Of a stretch of DNA of 24,183 nucleotides, positions 778 through 17,100 are shown piece by piece. The notes beneath the pieces are model-generated. The model did no database searches and had not been told where the DNA came from. It saw only the letters and a list, made by a program, of their open reading frames with translations. How positions within the stretch are numbered: the first letter of the stretch is position 1; the number at the start of each line of letters is the position of its first letter. The position numbers and the translations under genes are program-made. Origin of the DNA: a virus; the IMG/VR virus record IMGVR_UViG_3300025085_000186, positions 1-24,183 of that record; one strand, written 5' to 3'.

Positions 778-801
778 AAAGTGTCCAACATTGGACCGTT
801 T
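778..801 (-). promoter_or_regulatory. Leader dyad element, copy 1
   Basis: Full copy of the 24-bp element: AAA, GT, core GTCCAACATTGGAC (783-796), CG, TTT as read on the plus strand. It lies 20 nt upstream of the ATG of the Gp88-like gene and immediately upstream of its SD. The same element stands before most minus-strand genes in this block. Confidence 0.85.
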
Positions 802-826
802 CAGTTTGTTACAGTGTAGTATATAA

Positions 827-863
827 ATACTTAGTACTTTTATAAATGTCAAGTACTAAGTAT
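827..863 (-). other. Leader hairpin A
   Basis: Perfect 13-bp stem, 827-839 with 851-863, and an 11-nt loop. It lies between the stop of the 79-residue gene and the dyad of the Gp88 gene, where the other long leader hairpins sit. The stem sequence differs from the others, while the flanking GTTATACACAC and TATATAA sequences are shared. It lacks a clear T-run, so a simple intrinsic terminator is not assured. Confidence 0.75.
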
Positions 864-873
864 GTTATACACA

Positions 874-1113
874 CTAGTTGATGGTTAGCGGTATGGGGTA
901 AGCATAGTCGATGCCAACAAATTCATCGGGTACATATTCCTTGCACTCTAACATCTCAATGTTAGCGAGAGGTGTTTGCATCTGAGCCAACAGCATAGCT
1001 GTTTCGACAGCAGACTTCCAATCGTTTACGTTAGGCATAGTATCGTCCAGCTTAACTACACTAGGCACATTATCAATGCCTAGCGTTACTTCATATGCTT
1101 GTAGATAACTCAT
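874..1113 (-). CDS. Hypothetical small phage protein (79 aa)
   Basis: Not recognised. The product is 79 residues, acidic, with no transmembrane segment or cysteine cluster. It begins MSYLQAYEVTLGIDNVPSV and ends in a hydrophobic IPLTIN. The start at 1113 has GGAG at a somewhat long spacing inside the previous gene. Its ATG overlaps the stop of the 42-codon gene upstream (ATGA arrangement), so it is the last gene of a three-gene coupled unit, 1605 to 874. Its TAG stop lies at the edge of the conserved sequence that begins the next leader hairpin. Real gene likely, function unknown. Confidence 0.7.
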   Translation of the reverse strand: MSYLQAYEVTLGIDNVPSVVKLDDTMPNVNDWKSAVETAMLLAQMQTPLANIEMLECKEYVPDEFVGIDYAYPIPLTIN

Positions 1114-1238
1114 GTTTGTTTCTCCAATTCCTTACGGATTTTAGCCAGTAAATCTACTAAAGATTTATCTGAACGCATACTAGTCTTAGGCAGTAGCTGC
1201 TCACACATGGTGAGCAACTTTAGTTCAAGTTCCTTCAT
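1110..1238 (-). CDS. Hypothetical 42-residue protein
   Basis: Not recognised. A short open frame of 42 codons begins MKELELKLLTMCEQLLP and is predicted by eye to be mostly two charged helices (ELELKLL, LVDLLAKIRKELEK). It is supported by tight packing. Its ATG lies 1 nt after the stop of the upstream helix-turn-helix gene, with AGGG as SD, and its TGA overlaps the ATG of the 79-residue gene. Such a fit at both ends is unlikely for a chance frame. It could be a small protein-protein adaptor, but nothing proves a function. Confidence 0.6.
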   Translation of the reverse strand: MKELELKLLTMCEQLLPKTSMRSDKSLVDLLAKIRKELEKQT

Positions 1239-1239
1239 A

Positions 1240-1605
1240 TTACCCTGCCAAAGCAGCAGGGTTTTTGTCCATCAACTGCTTGTAAAGCAGAGTGGTTTGC
1301 TCCCAGCTTTGGATATATTCCTTACGTAGCTGGGCCTCGGCGGTCATGTTGGGGCATTTGTGAGGCAGGATGCCAAGCTGTTGTAGCTTCCCAACACGGT
1401 AAACTATACGGTTATGAAACTCGTTAAGGTTACGAGCCATTTCTTTGGCTGTCATGGTCATGTAGTTCTCGACTACATAATCATCAATGACGCTGTAGTT
1501 ATATGTATAACACGCTGCCTTCGACATATGGAAGGTGTGCTGCTCATACAAAGCAGGGTTGCTAGACTTGACGATAGGACGGGTTGTGTTTGTGTTGGTA
1601 GTCAT
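1240..1605 (-). CDS. Helix-turn-helix protein, possible leader-binding regulator
   Basis: The product has 121 residues. Residues about 42-80 (DYVVENYMTMTAKEMARNL followed by NRIVYRVGKLQQLGIL) look like a DNA-binding helix-turn-helix of the AsnC/winged type, with a regularly placed second helix. It is the clearest DNA-binding candidate in the minus-strand block and could bind the repeated dyads, including the one 20-odd nt in front of its own start; that is inference. The start at 1605 was preferred over an in-frame ATG at 1611 because AGGAG is 8 nt from 1605 and only 2 nt from 1611. The SD sits in the loop of a GCATA/TATGC hairpin. Confidence 0.75.
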   Translation of the reverse strand: MTTNTNTTRPIVKSSNPALYEQHTFHMSKAACYTYNYSVIDDYVVENYMTMTAKEMARNLNEFHNRIVYRVGKLQQLGILPHKCPNMTAEAQLRKEYIQSWEQTTLLYKQLMDKNPAALAG

Positions 1606-1625
1606 GTGCATATCTCCTATGCTGT

Positions 1626-1649
1626 AAAGTGTCCAATGTTGGACCGTTT
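1626..1649 (-). promoter_or_regulatory. Leader dyad element, copy 2 (inverted centre)
   Basis: The core GTCCAATGTTGGAC is at 1631-1644. The two central bases are TG where the other copies read CA, while the asymmetric flanks AAAGT and CGTTT keep their usual orientation. It precedes the helix-turn-helix gene. Confidence 0.85.
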
Positions 1650-1669
1650 GGTTGGGGTAGTAAGTGTAG

Positions 1670-1718
1670 TATATAAATAATAAGTATATCGTAAGAACTC
1701 TATACTTATTATGTTATA
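1670..1718 (-). repeat. 49-bp leader repeat, copy 1
   Basis: Identical over 49 bp to 3297-3345. It covers leader hairpin B and its flanks. Identity in the stem, loop and flanks of two distant leaders points to recent copying or gene conversion. Confidence 0.85.
1677..1712 (-). other. Leader hairpin B
   Basis: Perfect 12-bp AT-rich stem, 1677-1688 with 1701-1712, and a 12-nt loop. On the minus strand the loop contains GTTCTTACGA, which recurs in the loops of hairpins D, E and F and, with one extra T, in G, although some of their stems differ. Confidence 0.8.
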
Positions 1719-1730
1719 CACACTAAGTGT

Positions 1731-2117
1731 TTAAGCCAGTGTTAGTTTAAGGTCAAGCTCTTTCCATCCTACAGGCATACACATTACTGCTGTATTTTCT
1801 AGCAGATCAACAGCGATATCACCAACCGACATTGAAGGATGTTTCTGTAGTGATACTACATTGATACCCTCTCTGGCATAGCCATTACCTGCATCAAATA
1901 TATCTGATAATGCAAGTGACATACCATCAGTACAACTGATCAACATGGTCTGTTTATACATACCAAGTTCAATGGCATCCAATGCCCTTCGATTGGCATT
2001 TTCCCCATTGGGAAACATCAAGGCAAAGTATGCTAAAGCAAAGTCACTGTCCTGTTGTGCATTAATGCGCTTCACTTGATCGTCGGATAGTGGACGTTGG
2101 TAAATCATATAGGTCAT
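1731..2117 (-). CDS. Hypothetical phage protein (128 aa)
   Basis: Not recognised. The product is 128 residues, beginning MTYMIYQRPLSDDQVKRINA, soluble, with a LALSDIFDAGNGYAREGINV segment and a hydrophobic, methionine-rich C-terminus. The start at 2117 is favoured by GAAGGG 9-10 nt upstream and by the TAA of the preceding short frame two bases before it. A longer in-frame start at 2153 would overlap that short frame and has no better SD. It closes the unit that begins at dyad copy 3. The stop is followed after about a dozen bases by leader hairpin B. Confidence 0.75.
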   Translation of the reverse strand: MTYMIYQRPLSDDQVKRINAQQDSDFALAYFALMFPNGENANRRALDAIELGMYKQTMLISCTDGMSLALSDIFDAGNGYAREGINVVSLQKHPSMSVGDIAVDLLENTAVMCMPVGWKELDLKLTLA

Positions 2118-2118
2118 T

Positions 2119-2208
2119 TTATCGTACCCTTCTACGAAGTTTTTGTTTAGCATAACGTAAAGACTTACGTTCTATCTGCCACAACTTGCGGCGTTCCTTG
2201 TAAGTCAT
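2119..2208 (-). CDS. Possible 29-residue basic peptide
   Basis: A 29-codon frame begins MTYKERRKLWQIERKSLRYA and is very basic (many Arg and Lys). It lies between dyad copy 3, 9 nt upstream of its ATG, and the start of the 128-residue gene, which begins immediately after its TAA. The position matches the other leader-driven genes, and the stop-start coupling is tight. However, no good SD is seen upstream, and an ATGATATG sequence makes the start ambiguous. It may be a real peptide, a leader peptide for the next gene, or chance. Confidence 0.4.
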   Translation of the reverse strand: MTYKERRKLWQIERKSLRYAKQKLRRRVR

Positions 2209-2216
2209 ATCATTCT

Positions 2217-2235
2217 GTCCAACATTGGACCGTTT
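2217..2235 (-). promoter_or_regulatory. Leader dyad element, copy 3
   Basis: The core GTCCAACATTGGAC is at 2217-2230, with the CGTTT flank on one side only. The usual AAAGT flank is replaced. No long hairpin accompanies it. Confidence 0.75.
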
Positions 2236-2261
2236 GATAAACTTAATAAAGTTTAAGAGTT

Positions 2262-2441
2262 TCATCCATCCATATACTCCCTGAGTGCCTTACGGAAATC
2301 CGTTTGGCGATTACGTTTAGCTTTGTTGCCCTTTTTAGGAAGGACAACTTGCGGTGACTTGCGTTCCTGCAGCATAGCTTTAGCTACAGGATTGACAATA
2401 CCCATTGGGGCATTCTTCATATTACGATTAGGCACTTTCAT
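2262..2441 (-). CDS. Small basic phage protein (59 aa)
   Basis: A 59-codon frame, MKVPNRNMKNAPMGIVNPVA onwards, with a central QVVLPKKGNKAKRNRQ and a C-terminal FRKALREYMDG. The NPVAKAML stretch followed by a basic KKG segment recalls small conserved proteins of unknown function in other phages; this is memory, not a search. It overlaps the end of the 33-residue membrane peptide gene by 14 bp, so it is probably translated by coupling, which fits the lack of a clear SD. It might bind nucleic acid because of its charge. Confidence 0.6.
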   Translation of the reverse strand: MKVPNRNMKNAPMGIVNPVAKAMLQERKSPQVVLPKKGNKAKRNRQTDFRKALREYMDG

Positions 2442-2529
2442 TTTTAAACAAATCCCAAAACATCCATCCTAATGCACAAACTTGCACAAGGATTAAACCT
2501 GCAATTACACCAGACAAAAGATACTCCAT
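2428..2529 (-). CDS. 33-residue single-helix membrane peptide
   Basis: The frame MEYLLSGVIAGLILVQVCAL followed by GWMFWDLFKNESA has 33 codons. Residues about 4-26 form one hydrophobic helix with an aromatic WMFWDLF border and a short polar tail. The ATG overlaps the TAA of the 57-residue gene (TAATG) and the stop overlaps the next gene by 14 bp, so it is locked into a coupled unit of three. Size and topology suggest an inner-membrane peptide that interacts with a host membrane protein, but no function can be assigned. Confidence 0.6.
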   Translation of the reverse strand: MEYLLSGVIAGLILVQVCALGWMFWDLFKNESA

Positions 2530-2702
2530 TAAAGTTCGTCCCAAAAGATGCCCTTGAAGAAATCTCTATCTTCTGGCGATACGTTAGGCATGGCTTCCTG
2601 TATCAAAGCACCATCCATCCATGCTCTCACTTGTTCAAGGTTCACATCAATCTCTTTAGAGCGAACATCATCGGACAAGATAGATTTTACTTCAACAAAC
2701 AT
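2529..2702 (-). CDS. Small phage protein (57 aa)
   Basis: The product has 57 residues, with RAWMDGALIQEAMPNVSPED and a following FFKGIFWDEL. The pattern W-x-x-G-x-L-I-Q-E-A-x-P...S-P-E-x-R-x-F...G-I recalls a short phage family of unknown function. The start was set at 2702, with SD AAGGAA. A longer reading to 2732 would start at the ATG inside the dyad core, which has no SD and only translates the leader. It is the first gene of a coupled unit (57, 33 and 59 residues) under dyad copy 4. Confidence 0.75.
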   Translation of the reverse strand: MFVEVKSILSDDVRSKEIDVNLEQVRAWMDGALIQEAMPNVSPEDRDFFKGIFWDEL

Positions 2703-2703
2703 A

Positions 2704-2718
2704 TAAAAGTTCCTTTTA
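2704..2718 (-). promoter_or_regulatory. SD-bearing GAA mini-hairpin, copy 1
   Basis: On the minus strand TAAAAG-GAA-CTTTTA forms a perfect 6-bp stem with a GAA triloop. The SD AAGGAA lies partly in the stem and partly in the loop, directly before the ATG at 2702. Confidence 0.6.
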
Positions 2719-2742
2719 AAAGTGTCCAACATTGGACCGTTT
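2719..2742 (-). promoter_or_regulatory. Leader dyad element, copy 4
   Basis: Full 24-bp copy with core 2724-2737, 21 nt upstream of the ATG of the 57-residue gene. Confidence 0.85.
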
Positions 2743-2769
2743 CGGTTGGGTCGTTAGTGTGTTATATAA

Positions 2770-2808
2770 GTTATATATACTTTCACTAAAGTATCAAGTA
2801 TATATAAC
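2770..2808 (-). other. Leader hairpin C
   Basis: Perfect 13-bp stem, 2770-2782 with 2796-2808, and a 13-nt loop. The stem sequence is unlike the other hairpins, and the loop does not carry GTTCTTACGA. The flanks TTATATAA and GTTATAACCAC are conserved. Confidence 0.75.
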
Positions 2809-2821
2809 GTTATAACCACTA

Positions 2822-2953
2822 TCAAAAGATAGTAAGATTAGGCCATATGTACACTGCAAACCACAACAATATAGCCAGAACAACGGCAGCATTTAAGGCA
2901 ACCATAATACCATTACCAATGGTATAAAGAATGTTTAAGACAGCTTGTTTCAT
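2822..2953 (-). CDS. 43-residue single-helix membrane peptide
   Basis: A 43-codon frame begins MKQAVLNILYTIGNGIMVAL, followed by NAAVVLAILLWFAVYIW. It has a single long transmembrane segment, residues about 15-38, with a lysine at the N-terminus. It has a complete leader of its own: dyad copy 5, mini-hairpin with SD AAGGAA, then ATG. No long hairpin separates it from the 82-residue gene upstream, so the two may share a transcript. Being a membrane peptide with a dedicated leader suggests a regulated effect on the host envelope, but this is inference. Confidence 0.65.
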   Translation of the reverse strand: MKQAVLNILYTIGNGIMVALNAAVVLAILLWFAVYIWPNLTIF

Positions 2954-2954
2954 A

Positions 2955-2971
2955 TTAAAAGTTCCTTTTAA
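2955..2971 (-). promoter_or_regulatory. SD-bearing GAA mini-hairpin, copy 2
   Basis: On the minus strand TTAAAAG-GAA-CTTTTAA forms a 7-bp perfect stem with a GAA triloop that includes the SD. It ends directly before the ATG at 2953. Confidence 0.6.
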
Positions 2972-2994
2972 AAGTGTCCAACATTGGACCGTTT
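2971..2994 (-). promoter_or_regulatory. Leader dyad element, copy 5
   Basis: Full 24-bp copy with core 2976-2989. It abuts the TGA stop of the upstream 82-residue gene at 2994-2996, so this leader lacks the long hairpin. Confidence 0.85.
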
Positions 2995-3242
2995 CAGTTA
3001 CGCTCTGCTTGGCGAAGCCAACGCTCTGCTGTAGTTACATCAGCAGCACCTGCTTTCATACAGGCAATCACAGCCTCATCATGAGCCTCACGCTCAGATT
3101 GCAGGTCTGCATTAATCTGCTCTTGCAGATCAGCTTTCCATTGCTGCTGATCAGCCTCAGACATATCCCGATAGAACACAAGATCACCGCCACGTGGCCT
3201 AAAGCCATAGGCATCTTTGTACATATCGCTGAAGTTATCCAT
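2994..3242 (-). CDS. Conserved-looking small phage protein (82 aa)
   Basis: The product has 82 residues. The N-terminal FSDMYKDAYGFRPRGGDLVF resembles a DMYxDxxGxRPR motif that I recall at the start of many short phage proteins of unknown function. The rest is a long charged helix, rich in Glu, Gln and Ala, that could form a coiled coil. The start at 3242 has SD GAAGGAAC inside a mini-hairpin and dyad copy 6 about 20 nt upstream. It is preceded by hairpin D. No enzymatic motif is visible. Confidence 0.75.
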   Translation of the reverse strand: MDNFSDMYKDAYGFRPRGGDLVFYRDMSEADQQQWKADLQEQINADLQSEREAHDEAVIACMKAGAADVTTAERWLRQAERN

Positions 3243-3243
3243 A

Positions 3244-3258
3244 TAGAAGTTCCTTCTA
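3244..3258 (-). promoter_or_regulatory. SD-bearing GAA mini-hairpin, copy 3
   Basis: On the minus strand TAGAAG-GAA-CTTCTA forms a 6-bp perfect stem with a GAA triloop. Compared with the copies at 2704 and 2955, an A-T pair is replaced by G-C on both sides, which is a compensatory change. Confidence 0.65.
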
Positions 3259-3281
3259 AAGTGTCCAACATTGGACCGTTT
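3258..3281 (-). promoter_or_regulatory. Leader dyad element, copy 6
   Basis: Full 24-bp copy with core 3263-3276, 20 nt upstream of the ATG at 3242. Confidence 0.85.
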
Positions 3282-3296
3282 CAGTTTGTAGTACGT

Positions 3297-3345
3297 TATA
3301 TAAATAATAAGTATATCGTAAGAACTCTATACTTATTATGTTATA
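3297..3345 (-). repeat. 49-bp leader repeat, copy 2
   Basis: Identical over 49 bp to 1670-1718. It contains hairpin D. Confidence 0.85.
3304..3339 (-). other. Leader hairpin D
   Basis: 12-bp perfect stem, 3304-3315 with 3328-3339, and a 12-nt loop containing GTTCTTACGA on the minus strand. Same sequence as hairpin B. Confidence 0.8.
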
Positions 3346-3353
3346 ACTACTAT

Positions 3354-3665
3354 TTACATTCCGTCTTCGTGGCATCCATATGGTGCAAGGTATCCCATTT
3401 CAAGGATACTATCCCAAAATTCTTTCGCTGATTCTGCGGTTAAATCAGACCATTTTTCTACGAAAGCACGGCGCATCATCCCATTACCACAATCGTCAAT
3501 CTTATCTTGAACTGATTTAGGAAGATTAAGGCAGTGTACATAATCATCTTCACCCCATGAAAAATATGATTTAACATCATCTTGATTACCAAATTTCTGT
3601 AAGAAATCGTTGCGGCCCATTTGATAAGCGTCAGCTTCCATATAAAGATTAAACAATTTTGACAT
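3354..3665 (-). CDS. Hypothetical phage protein (103 aa)
   Basis: Not recognised. The product is 103 residues, beginning MSKLFNLYMEADAYQMGRND, acidic, with several aromatic residues and a C-terminal YLAPYGCHEDGM. Three cysteines are scattered and do not form a metal motif. The start at 3665 is supported by SD GAAGGAAC in a GAA mini-hairpin and by dyad copy 7, 20 nt upstream. It is a single-gene unit bracketed by two leaders, with hairpin D right after its stop and hairpin E before its leader. Composition and length suggest a small host-interaction protein, but nothing shows this. Confidence 0.75.
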   Translation of the reverse strand: MSKLFNLYMEADAYQMGRNDFLQKFGNQDDVKSYFSWGEDDYVHCLNLPKSVQDKIDDCGNGMMRRAFVEKWSDLTAESAKEFWDSILEMGYLAPYGCHEDGM

Positions 3666-3666
3666 G

Positions 3667-3681
3667 TAGAAGTTCCTTCTA
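3667..3681 (-). promoter_or_regulatory. SD-bearing GAA mini-hairpin, copy 4
   Basis: On the minus strand TAGAAG-GAA-CTTCTA, identical to copy 3, directly before the ATG at 3665. Confidence 0.65.
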
Positions 3682-3704
3682 AAGTGTCCAACATTGGACC
3701 GTTT
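3681..3704 (-). promoter_or_regulatory. Leader dyad element, copy 7
   Basis: Full 24-bp copy with core 3686-3699. Its right side is the start of the 91-bp repeat. Confidence 0.85.
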
Positions 3705-3785
3705 CGGTTTGATGGTGTGTTATATAAAAGCAATAGGTAGTTCGTAAGAACTTACTACCTATTACTTGTTATAACCACTAGTTAG
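3695..3785 (-). repeat. 91-bp leader direct repeat, copy 1
   Basis: Matches 3918-4008 over 91 bp with one mismatch (GATGGTG against GATAGTG). It spans half of the dyad, the linker, hairpin E and the stop region of the upstream gene. Together with copy 2 it brackets the 37-codon gene. Confidence 0.9.
3732..3763 (-). other. Leader hairpin E
   Basis: 10-bp perfect stem AATAGGTAGT with ACTACCTATT (3732-3741, 3754-3763). The loop holds GTTCTTACGA on the minus strand and can form an inner 4-5 bp stem. Confidence 0.8.
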
Positions 3786-3895
3786 CAAAAAGATACGACT
3801 ACGAAAGACGTAGTGTCGAAACCCACTCTTGCAGGTGTGATGGTTAGAAAGGTGAATGGCAGACGGGCTACCCAGCTTGTCGAACGTACTAGCAT
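3782..3895 (-). CDS. 37-residue hydrophobic peptide between leader repeats
   Basis: A 37-codon frame begins MLVRSTSWVARLPFTFLTIT and ends FVVVSFC. It is hydrophobic and aromatic with few charges, but has no clean transmembrane helix. Support comes from a strong SD, AGGAG, 7 nt before the ATG at 3895, and from its position between two leader copies. Its TAA lies inside the 91-bp repeat. Its own dyad is degenerate, with only the right half surviving at 3918-3927. No function can be suggested. It may be a recently inserted or decaying cassette. Confidence 0.55.
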   Translation of the reverse strand: MLVRSTSWVARLPFTFLTITPARVGFDTTSFVVVSFC

Positions 3896-3917
3896 TTTGT
3901 TACTCCTGATATGTTAG

Positions 3918-3927
3918 TGGACCGTTT
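3918..3927 (-). promoter_or_regulatory. Degenerate leader dyad, half copy
   Basis: TGGACCGTTT is kept but the other arm is lost (the sequence reads ATGTTAG instead of GTCCAACAT). It precedes the 37-codon gene. Confidence 0.6.
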
Positions 3928-3954
3928 CGGTTTGATAGTGTGTTATATAAAAGC

Positions 3955-3986
3955 AATAGGTAGTTCGTAAGAACTTACTACCTATT
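3955..3986 (-). other. Leader hairpin F
   Basis: Same stem and loop as hairpin E: stem 3955-3964 with 3977-3986. It follows the stop of the 217-residue gene by about 25 bp. Confidence 0.8.
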
Positions 3987-4011
3987 ACTTGTTATAACCA
4001 CTAGTTAGTGA

Positions 4012-4665
4012 TTAGAATGGAAGGCCAACAGATTTTACTGCTTTAGCAGCAATGTGTGTATTTGCAGCATCTACAGGATCATCTGCATCAAGCTCTGCTT
4101 CAAGCCGTTCTTGCTCAATCATGAGCATCTCAATGATCTCTTCAAGATCAAGGCCATTGCCTTTCACAATGTCCATCATTTTGTCTACGACAAGCTGCGG
4201 AGTAACCTTTAGGTTAGGATTTGGTCCAACATTGGACACTTCTGCTTTAGCAGTAGGTTGTTCCGTTGGTTCAGCTTTAGCTGTAGTATCAGCTTCGCTG
4301 TCTGGATTGGCAGCTTTACGCATTGCAGCTTTTAAAGCTGTAAGACTAGAACCTTTGAACTTGCCTTTGGCAATGAAGTCACGGCACTCTTTTTCGTTTT
4401 CAACGAACCAAAGAGCCTCAGAACGGCGGCGTTTATCAATACCATTGATCCCATGAGTGACCAAGGTTTGACGACTGATTTGACCACTATCCATCGGAGA
4501 TGAGGCTTTCAACTTCTGTAGAAGTTTACCCAACCGAGTATCAAAGCCATTGGCTTTTACAGTCTGTTTCAACGAGTTGAGTTGACGCCACATTTTACCA
4601 AGGGCTTTGCCCTCTGCAATATCGTCACCGATTGAGGTAGTTTGGTTTTGGTTTGGAGTTGCCAT
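4012..4665 (-). CDS. First gene of the minus-strand block, hypothetical (217 aa)
   Basis: The product has 217 residues. The N-terminus is rich in Asn, Gln and Thr. The middle has a basic INGIDKRRRSEALWFVENEK stretch followed by a Lys/Ala helix. Next comes a low-complexity Ala/Thr/Glu linker, then an acidic C-terminal helix pair (LDLEEIIEMLMIEQERLEAE). The KRRRSEALWF region recalls early proteins of other marine phages, function unknown. The start at 4665 has SD AAAGGA and lies downstream of hairpin G and a minus-strand TTGACA box, so it is probably the first gene expressed leftward. A dyad core lies inside the coding sequence at 4224-4237. Confidence 0.8.
   Translation of the reverse strand: MATPNQNQTTSIGDDIAEGKALGKMWRQLNSLKQTVKANGFDTRLGKLLQKLKASSPMDSGQISRQTLVTHGINGIDKRRRSEALWFVENEKECRDFIAKGKFKGSSLTALKAAMRKAANPDSEADTTAKAEPTEQPTAKAEVSNVGPNPNLKVTPQLVVDKMMDIVKGNGLDLEEIIEMLMIEQERLEAELDADDPVDAANTHIAAKAVKSVGLPF
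4223..4241 (+). promoter_or_regulatory. Dyad element in opposite orientation, inside a gene
   Basis: On the plus strand GGTCCAACATTGGACACTT. The core is perfect, but the asymmetric flanks match the element as it reads on the minus strand elsewhere, so this copy is inverted relative to the others. It codes for residues SNVGP of the 217-residue protein. Confidence 0.6.
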
Positions 4666-4699
4666 GGTTAGTTTTCCTTTTATCTATTCTGTTTATATG

Positions 4700-4741
4700 A
4701 GAGAACTTATATCTCTCGTAAAGAACGAGATATAATTCTCT
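4700..4741 (-). other. Leader hairpin G
   Basis: AGAGAA (4700-4705) and TTATATCTC (4707-4715) pair with TTCTCT (4736-4741) and GAGATATAA (4727-4735), a 15-bp stem with a one-base bulge. The loop on the minus strand is GTTCTTTACGA, close to hairpins B, D, E and F. It lies before the first minus-strand gene, with no gene upstream to terminate. Confidence 0.75.
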
Positions 4742-4749
4742 TTATAAAC

Positions 4750-4778
4750 TAAGTAGAATAGAAAAAAGGGTTTGTCAA
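4750..4778 (-). promoter_or_regulatory. Candidate leftward promoter
   Basis: Perfect -35 TTGACA on the minus strand (4778-4773), then 17 nt to TACTTA (4755-4750), a poor -10. It lies about 85 bp upstream of the first minus-strand gene. The -35 is convincing and the -10 is not. Confidence 0.35.
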
Positions 4779-4796
4779 GTGGGTTGGTTTTGGTGA

Positions 4797-5190
4797 TTGA
4801 TCGAAGATCAAAAGGTCGCATGATGATCCTCGGCGCAGGTCGTTTCGCATTGACTGCAGGTATCGAAGATACCGAAGTTCGTACGTGAAACTCGTGAGGA
4901 GTGTTGCTGAATTGTCACAGTTTGTATATAGATGGAACATCTAAAAAGTGTCCAACATTGGACCGTTTGACCATTGGCAGAGCTATGCATGGCTTGTAGG
5001 ATCACATGACTGACCAATACCATTGGTGGGGTAGGGTATTTTTAAGCATCGGCTTCACTACACATCTTCGATGTGAAAACCCTTGGTATCAATTCACTAT
5101 TTATAGTGGCAACTGATTGAATAACACTTGTCGTAGACAAGGAAGCTGTTGAAATCACTCACTCTTTAGAGTGTTTGGTGTGATGATCAC
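4797..5190. other. Array of mini-hairpins in the control region
   Basis: Perfect short stems with tiny loops follow one another. 4797-4811 TTGATC-GAA-GATCAA; 4859-4873 GGTATC-GAA-GATACC; 4929-4943 TAGATG-GAA-CATCTA; 5013-5027 ACCAAT-ACC-ATTGGT; 5061-5075 CACATC-TTC-GATGTG (GAA on the minus strand); 5095-5108 CACTA-TTTA-TAGTG; 5127-5141 CTTGTC-GTA-GACAAG; 5160-5173 CACTC-TTTA-GAGTG; 5180-5190 GTGA-TGA-TCAC. Four of the loops are GNA closed by C-G, the motif known to make exceptionally stable single-stranded DNA mini-hairpins. No convincing gene lies here. An origin of replication or a set of single-strand promoters are the best guesses. Confidence 0.7.
4945..4968 (-). promoter_or_regulatory. 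Leader dyad element, copy 10 (no gene)
   Basis: Full 24-bp copy with core 4950-4963, followed on the minus strand by a mini-hairpin (4929-4943) at the usual distance. Here the transcript loop reads TTC rather than GAA, and no SD or convincing gene follows. Confidence 0.8.
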
Positions 5191-5196
5191 CTCATC

Positions 5197-5262
5197 TGCC
5201 CTCACCGCAACGGCTGCTTAGGCATTATGCATAGGTACAGGCGCAGTGACACGTGAGGGGCA
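5197..5262. other. GC-rich structured element
   Basis: TGCCCTCAC (5197-5205) pairs with GTGAGGGGCA (5253-5262) with one bulged G. A GGTAC/GTACC pair and a GGGG/CCCC pair extending to about 5280 offer alternative folds. The segment is clearly more GC-rich than its surroundings. No coding frame or tRNA fold was found. Confidence 0.45.
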
Positions 5263-5442
5263 AGGGCCACCCCCGTACCCAGCGTATATATGCATGTACT
5301 AATACACAGATTAGGTTTTTTAACTGGTAACCACAAGGTATATATACGTACTATGATACCCCATAGACACACTTACTGTGATATATTTGTCACACTATGC
5401 CCTAATGCTACACTAAAATCCTACCACATACAACATTAGGGG

Positions 5443-5476
5443 TTGACATGTTTTACCGAATGTGTAAAACTATCAT
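5443..5476 (+). promoter_or_regulatory. Candidate rightward promoter with overlapping dyad
   Basis: TTGACA at 5443-5448, then 16 nt to TAAAAC (5465-5470). The spacer and -10 are formed by a perfect inverted repeat, GTTTTAC (5450-5456) and GTAAAAC (5464-5470), which could be an operator. It lies about 160 bp upstream of the first plus-strand gene. Confidence 0.4.
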
Positions 5477-5632
5477 AGTAGACAGTAGACACTCACTTAC
5501 AGTGATTCATTGATAGATAAAAAATAATTCTAATCTATTAATCACGTAAATGCAGACACTTTAAGTGAGGAAACACAAATCCTACTACTTAAATGTACAT
5601 AAATAACAATAATATGTAGAAAGTACTTGACA

Positions 5633-14178: not shown

Positions 14179-17100
14179 AACTGCTGTAAAAGCTGCTGAT
14201 GTAGCCAAGGATGCAAGTAGAACTAAACCTAAGTCTCAAATGAATCCTTTGGTTAAAGCAAGAAAAAAACTTGCCGAAACAGATTTTGAAAAATCAGCAA
14301 GTCAAGAAGTAAAAGATTTTTTATCTGTAGTAGAAGAAAAAGACCCTAATCAACTTGGTGAGTTTTACAGTCCTGTAGTTAGTACGCTAGAAGAAATGCC
14401 TATTGGCAAACAAGGTACTAAAGGGGAAAACATATCTGCTTTTATTCAAAAACGTGCGCCTAGCATTACAGGTTCAGAAAAAGGGAATTTACCTAAGTTA
14501 GACCCAAAGAAAAAATACACCCGTGAAGAAGCTATCGAAACACTAAAACCTATTGATAAATCTTATAGCATTGAAATAAATCAAAATCCAGCTTATCAAA
14601 ATCCTAATCAAAGAGGTAATCAAAGACAAAATATTACAGATAAAGAAGAAAGTTACTTTGAAGTATTTGTAAAACAAAAAGATATAGACCCTGAAATAGA
14701 AGAAGTTTCAGGAGGACATTTTCAAGATGCAGGAATACTTGCACATACACGTTCATCTATTAGAAGGGAAACTCCTGCAGGTGGCCCTCTTACAAAAAAA
14801 ATAAAAGACAGAGAACGCTATCTTCTAATTGAAGAAATGCAAAGTGATGTAGCTAATCTTGTTGAAAAAAATGTAGATGAATTAGGTATGTCTAGGATTT
14901 CAGAAGATGCTAGAGAAGTTTTTGCTGAAGAAGGACCACAAGGTAATTTTGCAAATGAGGTAGTAGACAATTTAGGTACACCTTTTAATAAAGAACATGA
15001 AAATATATTAAATGATTGGTATACTAAAATACGTAAAAGAACTGATTTAGGGTATGTAATAGGAGAAAACTATTCAAAAATTCAAGATGTAATTGACTTA
15101 AAACGTATATATAAAGATGTATTAAATATTGATGTAGGTGGACGTACCCCAGAACAAATACATAAAAATGCCTCTGTGCGGTTATATGAAAATGATGTAG
15201 ACCCTGACGAATTAATTATGAATTTTGGTGATTCTGAATATGATATAGGAGAATATTTTGATGAAACTTTTAATTATTATTTAAAATTATCTACAGACGT
15301 AAGTAAAAAAGAACGTAAATTTGGAGAAATTACTTATCCTAAATCTGCTGTGCCTCTTAATACTAGAACAGAATATGTTACAAAGTTAATACAAGCTAAT
15401 ATTGCTTTGGCAAAAAAACAAGGCGTAACTAAAATAGTAATACCTGACTATAAAGAAATTGCTAGATTGCGTGACCACATTCAAACTGATGGAAATAAAG
15501 AAGATATATTTAAAATGACTTATGAAGATGCAGTAAATAAAGCATTAAAAAGTTTAATAAAAGAATCTAAAGGACAAATTAAAGTAGGTAAACGTGAACT
15601 AAAATATAATTCTGCAGAAGCTAGAGGTAATCGCAAAAGTACTGCAACTGAAATAGATATATCAGATTTTGATTTTAATCCTGATACACAAGCATTTAGA
15701 TTTAATAAAGGTGGAATAGTACCAATGAATAACCAGACTCAGCAAGCATTTGCACTAGGTGGATTAAAAGATGAAGGTGGCGAAATTGATGAAGCGTCAG
15801 GTAATCGTGTACCCATTGGCGGCACTAAAGAAGGTGTACGGGATGACATATCAGCTAATGTAAGTGAAGGTGAGTTTATTTTTCCTGCAGATGTAGTACG
15901 ATATCATGGCCTAGATAAAATGATGGCACTACGACAAGAAGCTAAGATGGGCCTTAAGCAAATGGAACGCATGGGACAGATGGGCAATAGTGATGAAGCT
16001 ACTATTCCTGATGACTTACCTTTTGGCATGGCTGATCTTATTGTAGTTGGTGGCGAAGGTGAGCCTATGGAATTTGCAGATGGTGGATTTGTGCCACAGA
16101 TGCAGACGTTACAAACAGCACCTGTACCTACAATGGGCGGTGGTACATCTACTGGTACGCAGACACCTATTGTGTATGATGACTTTATGAAGACACCTGT
16201 AGTGACTATGCAGGAATACCGTGACGCTAATGGTAACTCTATTATTATTACATCTGTAAATGGCAAGGCTACTACTGAAATACCTGCAGGGTATACATTG
16301 TACACACCACCTGCTAACACTGCACCTACAACTACACAAGCAGCTATTCAGACTGTTAATAGACGTAGCTACAGACCTAGTGGTGATGATGAAGGTCCAG
16401 AGCCACAGCCAGATCAACCAGCACCTGACTATAGAAATATGAATGACGATGAGTTTTTTAGTTATATGGCAGAGCAAAATGGCTTTGGTGCTAAAGCAGG
16501 TAATGCTGCAGGTTTAGCTATTGCTACTATGGTAGGTGGCCCTGTTGGTTTGTTAGTTGGTGCTTTAATGCGTAACAATAAAAATAATCAAATGGCTAAT
16601 ATGAAAAGTCGCATTGATAGAATGGATGATGGCCCAGCTAAAACTAATGCACTAGCACTTTATAAAGAATATGGTGGTGAAACAGACCCTAAGAAAAAAG
16701 AAGGACTATTTGCTAACATAACAAATTTTGTTACAGGTCTTGTTACTCCTGTTGCTAATGCACTTGGCATTAATCAAGAGGATGCTGCAAAGGTTGCACA
16801 GAATGCTGCAGTAACAGAAGTAAGTGGTACTGAACCTGCTACTGCTGCTGCTGCTGCACCTACAACAAGTCTTAAACCTATATTACGGCCTGATGTTAGT
16901 GTTACTGCACCTGTTACTCAAATAGGACCACAAGGTACAGCTATTGGTACATTTACTAATCAAGACCCTAGACAACCTACTGCATTTCCCGGTATGGGAG
17001 CTAGAGTAGCAGCAGGTAATGTACAACCAGCATCTCCTGAATTTACACTTAACAATGCGCCTCTTATAACTGCTAGTGGAGCTACCTCCCCTCAAGCTGC

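Follow-up and report, generated by a model that had tools for sequence, protein, structure and literature searches.

Short, oriented and repeated elements are known from two clusters of mycobacteriophages. In cluster A phages, such as L5 and Bxb1, stoperators are bound by the immunity repressor so that elongation is blocked, and their versions differ among relatives and track the repressor (PMC6550527, PMC9283540). In cluster K phages, start-associated sequences (SAS) and extended start-associated sequences (ESAS) lie in one orientation at the starts, mostly ATG, of non-structural genes, and the start element is preceded by an inverted repeat that holds a SigA-like promoter (PMC3203893, PMC11373665). 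Here we describe a dyad, GTCCAA-NN-TTGGAC, that is repeated in the early region of a 24,183-nt stretch of viral DNA (IMG/VR record IMGVR_UViG_3300025085_000186, hereafter the window), and for which we found no earlier description in the literature. We tentatively propose, with a probability of about 0.48, that the dyad is the recognition site of a phage-encoded factor that co-regulates early genes, as a DNA operator of a stoperator-like kind.

Since the terminase encoded in the right part of the window, together with portal and coat proteins, is 82% identical to those of Roseobacter phages CRP-1 and CRP-345 and 80% identical to that of Puniceispirillum phage HMO-2011, we assign the window by sequence to a fragment of an HMO-2011-type marine podophage, which belongs to a dominant and very common group of viruses in the ocean. 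At 1-4.7 kb of the window, the minus-strand genes match the start of the CRP-1 early region. Nine exact copies of the 14-bp core were found, all in this early region and within the first 4,968 nt, while about 0.001 would be expected by chance in the window; with up to three mismatches, 11 matches were found compared to 2.06 expected from dinucleotide shuffles, and none of 100 shuffles reached 11. The full oriented 24-mer AAACGGTCCAAYRTTGGACACTTT occurs seven times, always in the same orientation on the minus strand, and at six of the seven copies an ATG behind a Shine-Dalgarno sequence follows 14-20 nt past the 24-mer (19-25 nt past the core), the seventh being geneless. A sequence-only reading of the window had placed the nine cores, the seven 24-mers, the geneless copy and a half copy near 3918 (reading GGACCGTTTCGG), and each of them was recovered where it had been placed (Table 1). 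The 29-codon frame at 2208 that it noted is an internal ATG of a 48-codon gene, and the core lies inside that gene. Its asymmetric flanks, AAAGT and CGTTT, held in that there is a conserved asymmetry, C[C/G] versus AC plus a TG-biased centre, but the flanks themselves are partly symmetric (AAA...TTT). Among 148 distinct oriented copies the arms were near-invariant, the centre was free and near-misses were few, a pattern usual for sites where a dimer binds palindromic DNA.

In IMG/VR, the relaxed symmetric pattern AAANNGTCCAANNTTGGACNNTTT was found in 112 stretches, many of them with several copies, and the exact 24-mer was present in 9 contigs. The asymmetric flanks AAAC[N]...ACTTT fitted 211 of 217 copies, and symmetric GT/AC on both sides occurred in none. 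A Shine-Dalgarno sequence and a start (ATG in 122) followed the dyad in 123 of 145 distinct contexts, compared to 9 on the opposite strand and about 21 for random same-strand points, counts that describe the set rather than a strict significance because related phages do not provide independent contexts. Where a start was present, the dyad ended 12-21 nt before the start codon, with a mode of 14-16 nt; the other 22 contexts were the noncoding control-region copy, in-frame intragenic copies and a few unclassified places. The copies are thus neither as common away from starts nor randomly oriented, and the element is conserved in relatives, which supports the earlier suggestion that a marine phage carries a start-associated element of directional kind, as an analogue of that of cluster K. 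Whole genomes of CRP-1 and CRP-345 hold 5 and 6 cores, respectively, mostly in the early region; an extra core at 14469 of CRP-345 (L118), within the gp30 coding sequence (CDS), was not seen in CRP-1. Every group examined has one noncoding control-region copy, and the counterparts of the one at 4945 lie at 53808 in CRP-1 and at 54485 in CRP-345, while HMO-2011 carries another version there. Repeated GTCC-N6-GGAC was not found in the first 12 kb of CRP-603, CRP-2, CRP-207, CRP-9, CRP-13, CRP-235 or HTVC033P, or in the first 50 kb of ctYwJ313. The 24-mer was absent from 84,980 prokaryote genomes (GTDB), and a host element or a prophage origin was rejected on this ground.

Two of the nine cores lie inside coding sequences, that of the first early gene (CDS a, 217 aa) and that of the small 48-aa gene. 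In CDS a, the core was present in 68 of 78 unique homologous open reading frames (ORFs) with identities down to 29%, and the codons of S[NK][VI]G read TCC AAY GTT GGA in 56 of 61 instances. All homologous S[NK][VI]G instances of the small CDS (45/45 and 5/5) retained the core. The integrase, which has a conserved RLSKVG segment and two more peptide matches elsewhere in the protein, was initially a candidate for a further conserved site; it was rejected, as its core is clade-limited and the codons drift elsewhere, and it became the control, S-K-V-G being retained there but encoded in many ways, in 18 instances with the core and in 23 without it (n = 41). In another early gene, the 24-mer precedes one and the same peptide but is read in different frames (INRPILDTLKFEPTLIYDSGW in L083 and AKPSKVGHFKEPTLIYDSGW in L103, translated by eye). 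The dyad site of CDS a maps to the end of a low-confidence stretch, residues 125-148, of the protein model. Because the codons are fixed in CDS a and the small CDS and drift in the integrase, the frame changes between L083 and L103, and the site lies in a low-confidence linker, we conclude from these comparisons that selection on the coding copies acts at the nucleic-acid level.

Besides the form described so far (type I), two further versions of the dyad were found. In the type II lineage (L032, L050 and L132), five of six sites read GTCCGACGTTGGAC and one leader retains the old form; the changed sites are those of the noncoding control region, CDS a, a further intragenic place, a leader and the small CDS. 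In HMO-2011 and its relatives (type III), the sites read AGTCCGACAGCGGACT, number 4-5 per genome and occupy places equivalent to those of the other versions, namely in the control region, ahead of start codons and where a gp82-like gene ends. The type III dyad at 1927 of HMO-2011 (L119) and 4437 of L144 encodes the C-terminal tail SDSGLT of the gp82-like protein and is another coding copy. At core position 5, the three versions have A-U, G-U and G-C pairs; the change in type II is one-sided. Since the sites changed together by lineage, these sequences imply a co-evolving trans-acting factor; gene conversion among the copies is a less likely cause, because the copies share no more than about 20 nt and are located in unrelated genes. 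The lineage switches, together with intragenic copies under codon constraint, help to separate DNA from RNA models.

In the leaders, the dyad belongs to an ordered module that consists of an upstream inverted repeat (in about half), often a TTGA..TATAAC promoter-like motif, the dyad itself and a variable inverted repeat at the Shine-Dalgarno sequence. Within 100 nt upstream, 61 of 121 leaders had an inverted repeat of 9 bp or more, compared to 12 of 500 random windows, and TTGANN-N16-18-TATAA[C/T] was found in 44 of the 121 (about 0.004 expected per window), 35 of these 44 having the upstream repeat. Forty of the 121 leaders lack the upstream repeat and carry the dyad within 15 nt behind an ORF stop; because these dyads directly follow the previous ORF, the earlier suggestion that the element is part of a promoter was not supported. 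The Shine-Dalgarno repeat, between the dyad and the ATG, is centred on GGA or GAA and shows compensatory variants (AAAC-GGA-GTTT, TTAC-GGA-GTAA, AATC-GGA-GATT and CAAG-GAA-CTTG). Its mean best stem was 4.0 compared to 2.7 in shuffled sequences, and its pairing was 0.56 compared to 0.33 in permuted ones (maximum 0.44 in 2,000), while ordinary CRP-1 and CRP-345 genes had a start-region stem at shuffle level and no Shine-Dalgarno repeat. Somewhat more than a third of the leaders are without a full 4-bp repeat. When the window was scanned for generic sigma-70 promoters, no enrichment was seen (14 found, 16.8 expected in shuffles); about half of the terminator-like sites in the window proved to be the dyads, which have no real T runs, and a search of Rfam gave a single chance-level match, under its gathering score. 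Two near-identical leader segments, each an inverted repeat with a full or half dyad, stand in tandem around ORF 3782-3895 at 3716-3780 and 3939-4003 of the window, the distal one being without half of its dyad, as if a cassette had been inserted or had decayed.

Table 1. Dyad copies, leader repeats and candidate factor genes in the window
Feature	Position	Strand	Basis or remark
Full 24-mer before gene 139-762	778..801	-	core at 783
Full 24-mer, CA-centred, before HTH gene 1240-1605	1626..1649	-	core at 1631
Core inside small CDS 2119-2265 (48 aa), encodes KRSNVGQ	2217..2230	-	conserved in relatives
Full 24-mer before gene 2529-2702	2719..2742	-	core at 2724
Full 24-mer before gene 2822-2953, at end of previous ORF, without upstream hairpin	2971..2994	-	core at 2976
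Full 24-mer before gene 2994-3242	3258..3281	-	core at 3263
Full 24-mer before gene 3354-3665	3681..3704	-	core at 3686
Half copy (AAACGGTCCA only) before ORF 3782-3895	3915..3931	-	read from sequence
Core inside CDS 4012-4665 (CDS a), encodes SNVG	4224..4237	-	low-confidence linker of model
Full 24-mer with no gene after it (orphan)	4945..4968	-	divergent noncoding region upstream of first early gene; core at 4950
Shine-Dalgarno inverted repeat TTAC-GGA-GTAA	767..777	-	sequence and family-wide test
Shine-Dalgarno inverted repeat GCATA-GGAGA-TATGC	1608..1622	-	sequence; RNA fold z -3.3
Shine-Dalgarno inverted repeat TAAAAG-GAA-CTTTTA	2704..2718	-	sequence and family-wide test
Shine-Dalgarno inverted repeat TAAAAG-GAA-CTTTTA	2956..2970	-	sequence and family-wide test
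Shine-Dalgarno inverted repeat AGAAG-GAA-CTTCT	3245..3257	-	sequence, family-wide test and RNA fold
Shine-Dalgarno inverted repeat AGAAG-GAA-CTTCT	3668..3680	-	sequence and family-wide test
Upstream inverted repeat, 13-bp arms	827..863	-	repeat search
Upstream inverted repeat, 12-bp arms	1677..1712	-	repeat search
Upstream inverted repeat with TTGATA/ATATAACT promoter-like motif	2770..2808	-	repeat search and leader survey
Upstream inverted repeat, 12-bp arms	3304..3339	-	repeat search
Upstream inverted repeat, 14-bp arms	3728..3767	-	repeat search
Upstream inverted repeat of half copy	3951..3990	-	repeat search
Helix-turn-helix (HTH) protein gene, candidate binder	1240..1605	-	tri-helical HTH and C-terminal helix (AlphaFold2, AF2, model)
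First early gene (CDS a), candidate factor	4012..4665	-	homologs accompany all three dyad versions

According to the DNA-operator reading, the factor would bind the GTCCAA/TTGGAC dyad as DNA at one control-region site, the operator, and also at sites just before starts and inside the first early genes, and the bound factor would hinder transcription in a direction-dependent manner, as cluster A stoperators do. The effect would be repressive, and the factor may be either the HTH protein or the first early protein. We put the chance that DNA is the target at roughly even and that of an RNA target clearly lower, and the two need not be exclusive. That coding and noncoding copies are alike argues for DNA. 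Several observations weigh against this reading: the narrow spacing to the ATG (14-16 nt) favours translation over transcription, as does the Shine-Dalgarno repeat, which accompanies the dyad and not ordinary genes; the pairs at position 5 resemble an RNA stem, with a one-sided change in type II; the HTH family was undetected in the HMO-2011 clade; and lysogeny is unproven for these phages, integration having been shown for CRP-3 only (PMC6918029). Most of these points would fit an RNA translational operator, in which a phage or host protein binds the dyad hairpin in the mRNA, a GUCCA-ANNU-UGGAC stem directly before the Shine-Dalgarno sequence in or beside a second small hairpin, and sets early gene translation. 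The compensatory changes in the Shine-Dalgarno repeat and the sense orientation of the dyad are also consistent with it, and some of the leaders are more stably folded than shuffles (z -3.3 and -2.7). However, several others are not (z -0.3 and -0.2), the dyad arms show no covariation within type I, the freest positions being those of the would-be loop, copies lie deep in coding sequences and in noncoding DNA far from a start, and there is no Rfam family, so that we consider such an operator less likely, though a serious rival. Somewhat less probable still is the fuller version in which one phage factor reads leader and coding sites alike as RNA, coupled to the Shine-Dalgarno hairpin, as a translational regulon; if true, this would be a new class of start-associated element, made of oriented palindromes, in a dominant marine phage group.

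The remaining explanations have much smaller chances. The leader module might be kept as a recombination landing site for the exchange of early gene cassettes, as homology blocks of close relatives often end 12-35 nt from the dyad centre (a qualitative observation), the same dyad is followed by different genes and leader repeats of about 120 nt occur; but any repeated leader can yield gene swapping as a consequence, and the codon-level constraint, the noncoding copy and the joint type II change would be left unexplained, which makes this reading improbable. Even less can be said for the dyad as part of a promoter or activator with TTGGAC as -35. TTGGACA does resemble a -35 box, but the -10 would land on the ATG, past the Shine-Dalgarno sequence, the upstream inverted repeat holds a motif that is more promoter-like (44/121), and the dyad symmetry would have no explanation; a -35 box as such was rejected on its wrong geometry. 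Finally, both CDS copies share one reading frame, as would be seen if they merely encoded a conserved peptide, SNVGQ, to which the repeat in the leaders had no relation. This is hardly credible, as their codons are fixed while those of the integrase RLSKVG drift, other in-CDS copies are in other frames, and the site lies in a low-confidence linker and changes jointly with noncoding sites.

As to the factor required by the DNA-operator reading, the HTH protein is a possible binder of the dyad. In its AF2 model, a tri-helical HTH is accompanied by a long C-terminal helix, and the best matches of the protein among solved structures are Lrp/AsnC-type HTH domains, at a modest Z of about 6. The family was found at 74 loci, accompanying types I and II, and was not found in the eight dyad-free relatives (partial genomes for most); a by-eye comparison revealed no diagnostic recognition-helix change in the type II lineage. 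In CRP-1 (L117), conservation puts the start of the HTH gene (2346-2690) at 2346 (MTNTFVFKSVR...), the annotated start being 2457. Homologs of CDS a were likewise not found in dyad-free relatives; its protein had no sequence match in PDB and no recognisable fold, and fold comparison yielded nothing usable. Between the divergent gene blocks, a noncoding stretch of about 0.9 kb at positions 4690-5630 of the window contains several small inverted repeats and is likely a control or origin region. Gene 139-762 of the window and 2783-3190 of CRP-1 (L117) have Pfam matches to the mycobacteriophage families GP88 and L5 gp82, although they belong to alphaproteobacterial phages.

The intragenic sites, the lineage versions that change together, the Shine-Dalgarno repeat and the promoter-bearing upstream repeat go beyond the sequence-only reading. 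The element can be regarded as a regulatory code for which early genes are co-controlled, how cassettes plug in and how site and factor co-evolve, and with it the puzzle of the cluster K start-associated elements recurs in unrelated phages. As in cluster A, there are many short sites per genome, mainly in one orientation to transcription (here 7/7, and 123 vs 9 of 145), with one site at the early promoter there and in the control region here, and others between genes. In contrast, cluster A stoperators are asymmetric 13-mers, monomer-bound and genome-wide, whereas the element described here has a palindromic 14-bp core with oriented flanks, is clustered in the early region and keeps a fixed spacing to the Shine-Dalgarno sequence. 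The likeness to SAS/ESAS of cluster K lies in the position near starts of early genes in one orientation, with the dyad ending 12-21 nt before the start, and in the upstream inverted repeat (61/121 leaders) with a sigma-70-like motif. However, the SAS, GGGATAGGAGCCC, includes the Shine-Dalgarno sequence, while the dyad lies upstream of it; the leaders here, which read for example AAACGGAGTTT and AGAAGGAACTTCT, have a Shine-Dalgarno repeat that varies and no sequence relation to SAS, and they are accompanied by conserved copies within coding sequences. Arbiol et al. reportedly described, in 2010, mobile regulatory cassettes of T4-type phages in which repeated promoter and stem-loop leaders stand between swapped small early genes. 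Early gene cassettes appear to be swapped between dyad leaders here as well (breakpoints near dyads, seen qualitatively in close relatives), although this is an HMO-2011-type podophage and not a member of the T4 superfamily, and we know of no palindromic factor site or coding copies in the T4-type cassettes. Overall, by analogy, the dyad would work most like the cluster A stoperators and is placed most like SAS/ESAS of cluster K, and because site symmetry and consensus differ, we regard it as a member of neither system.

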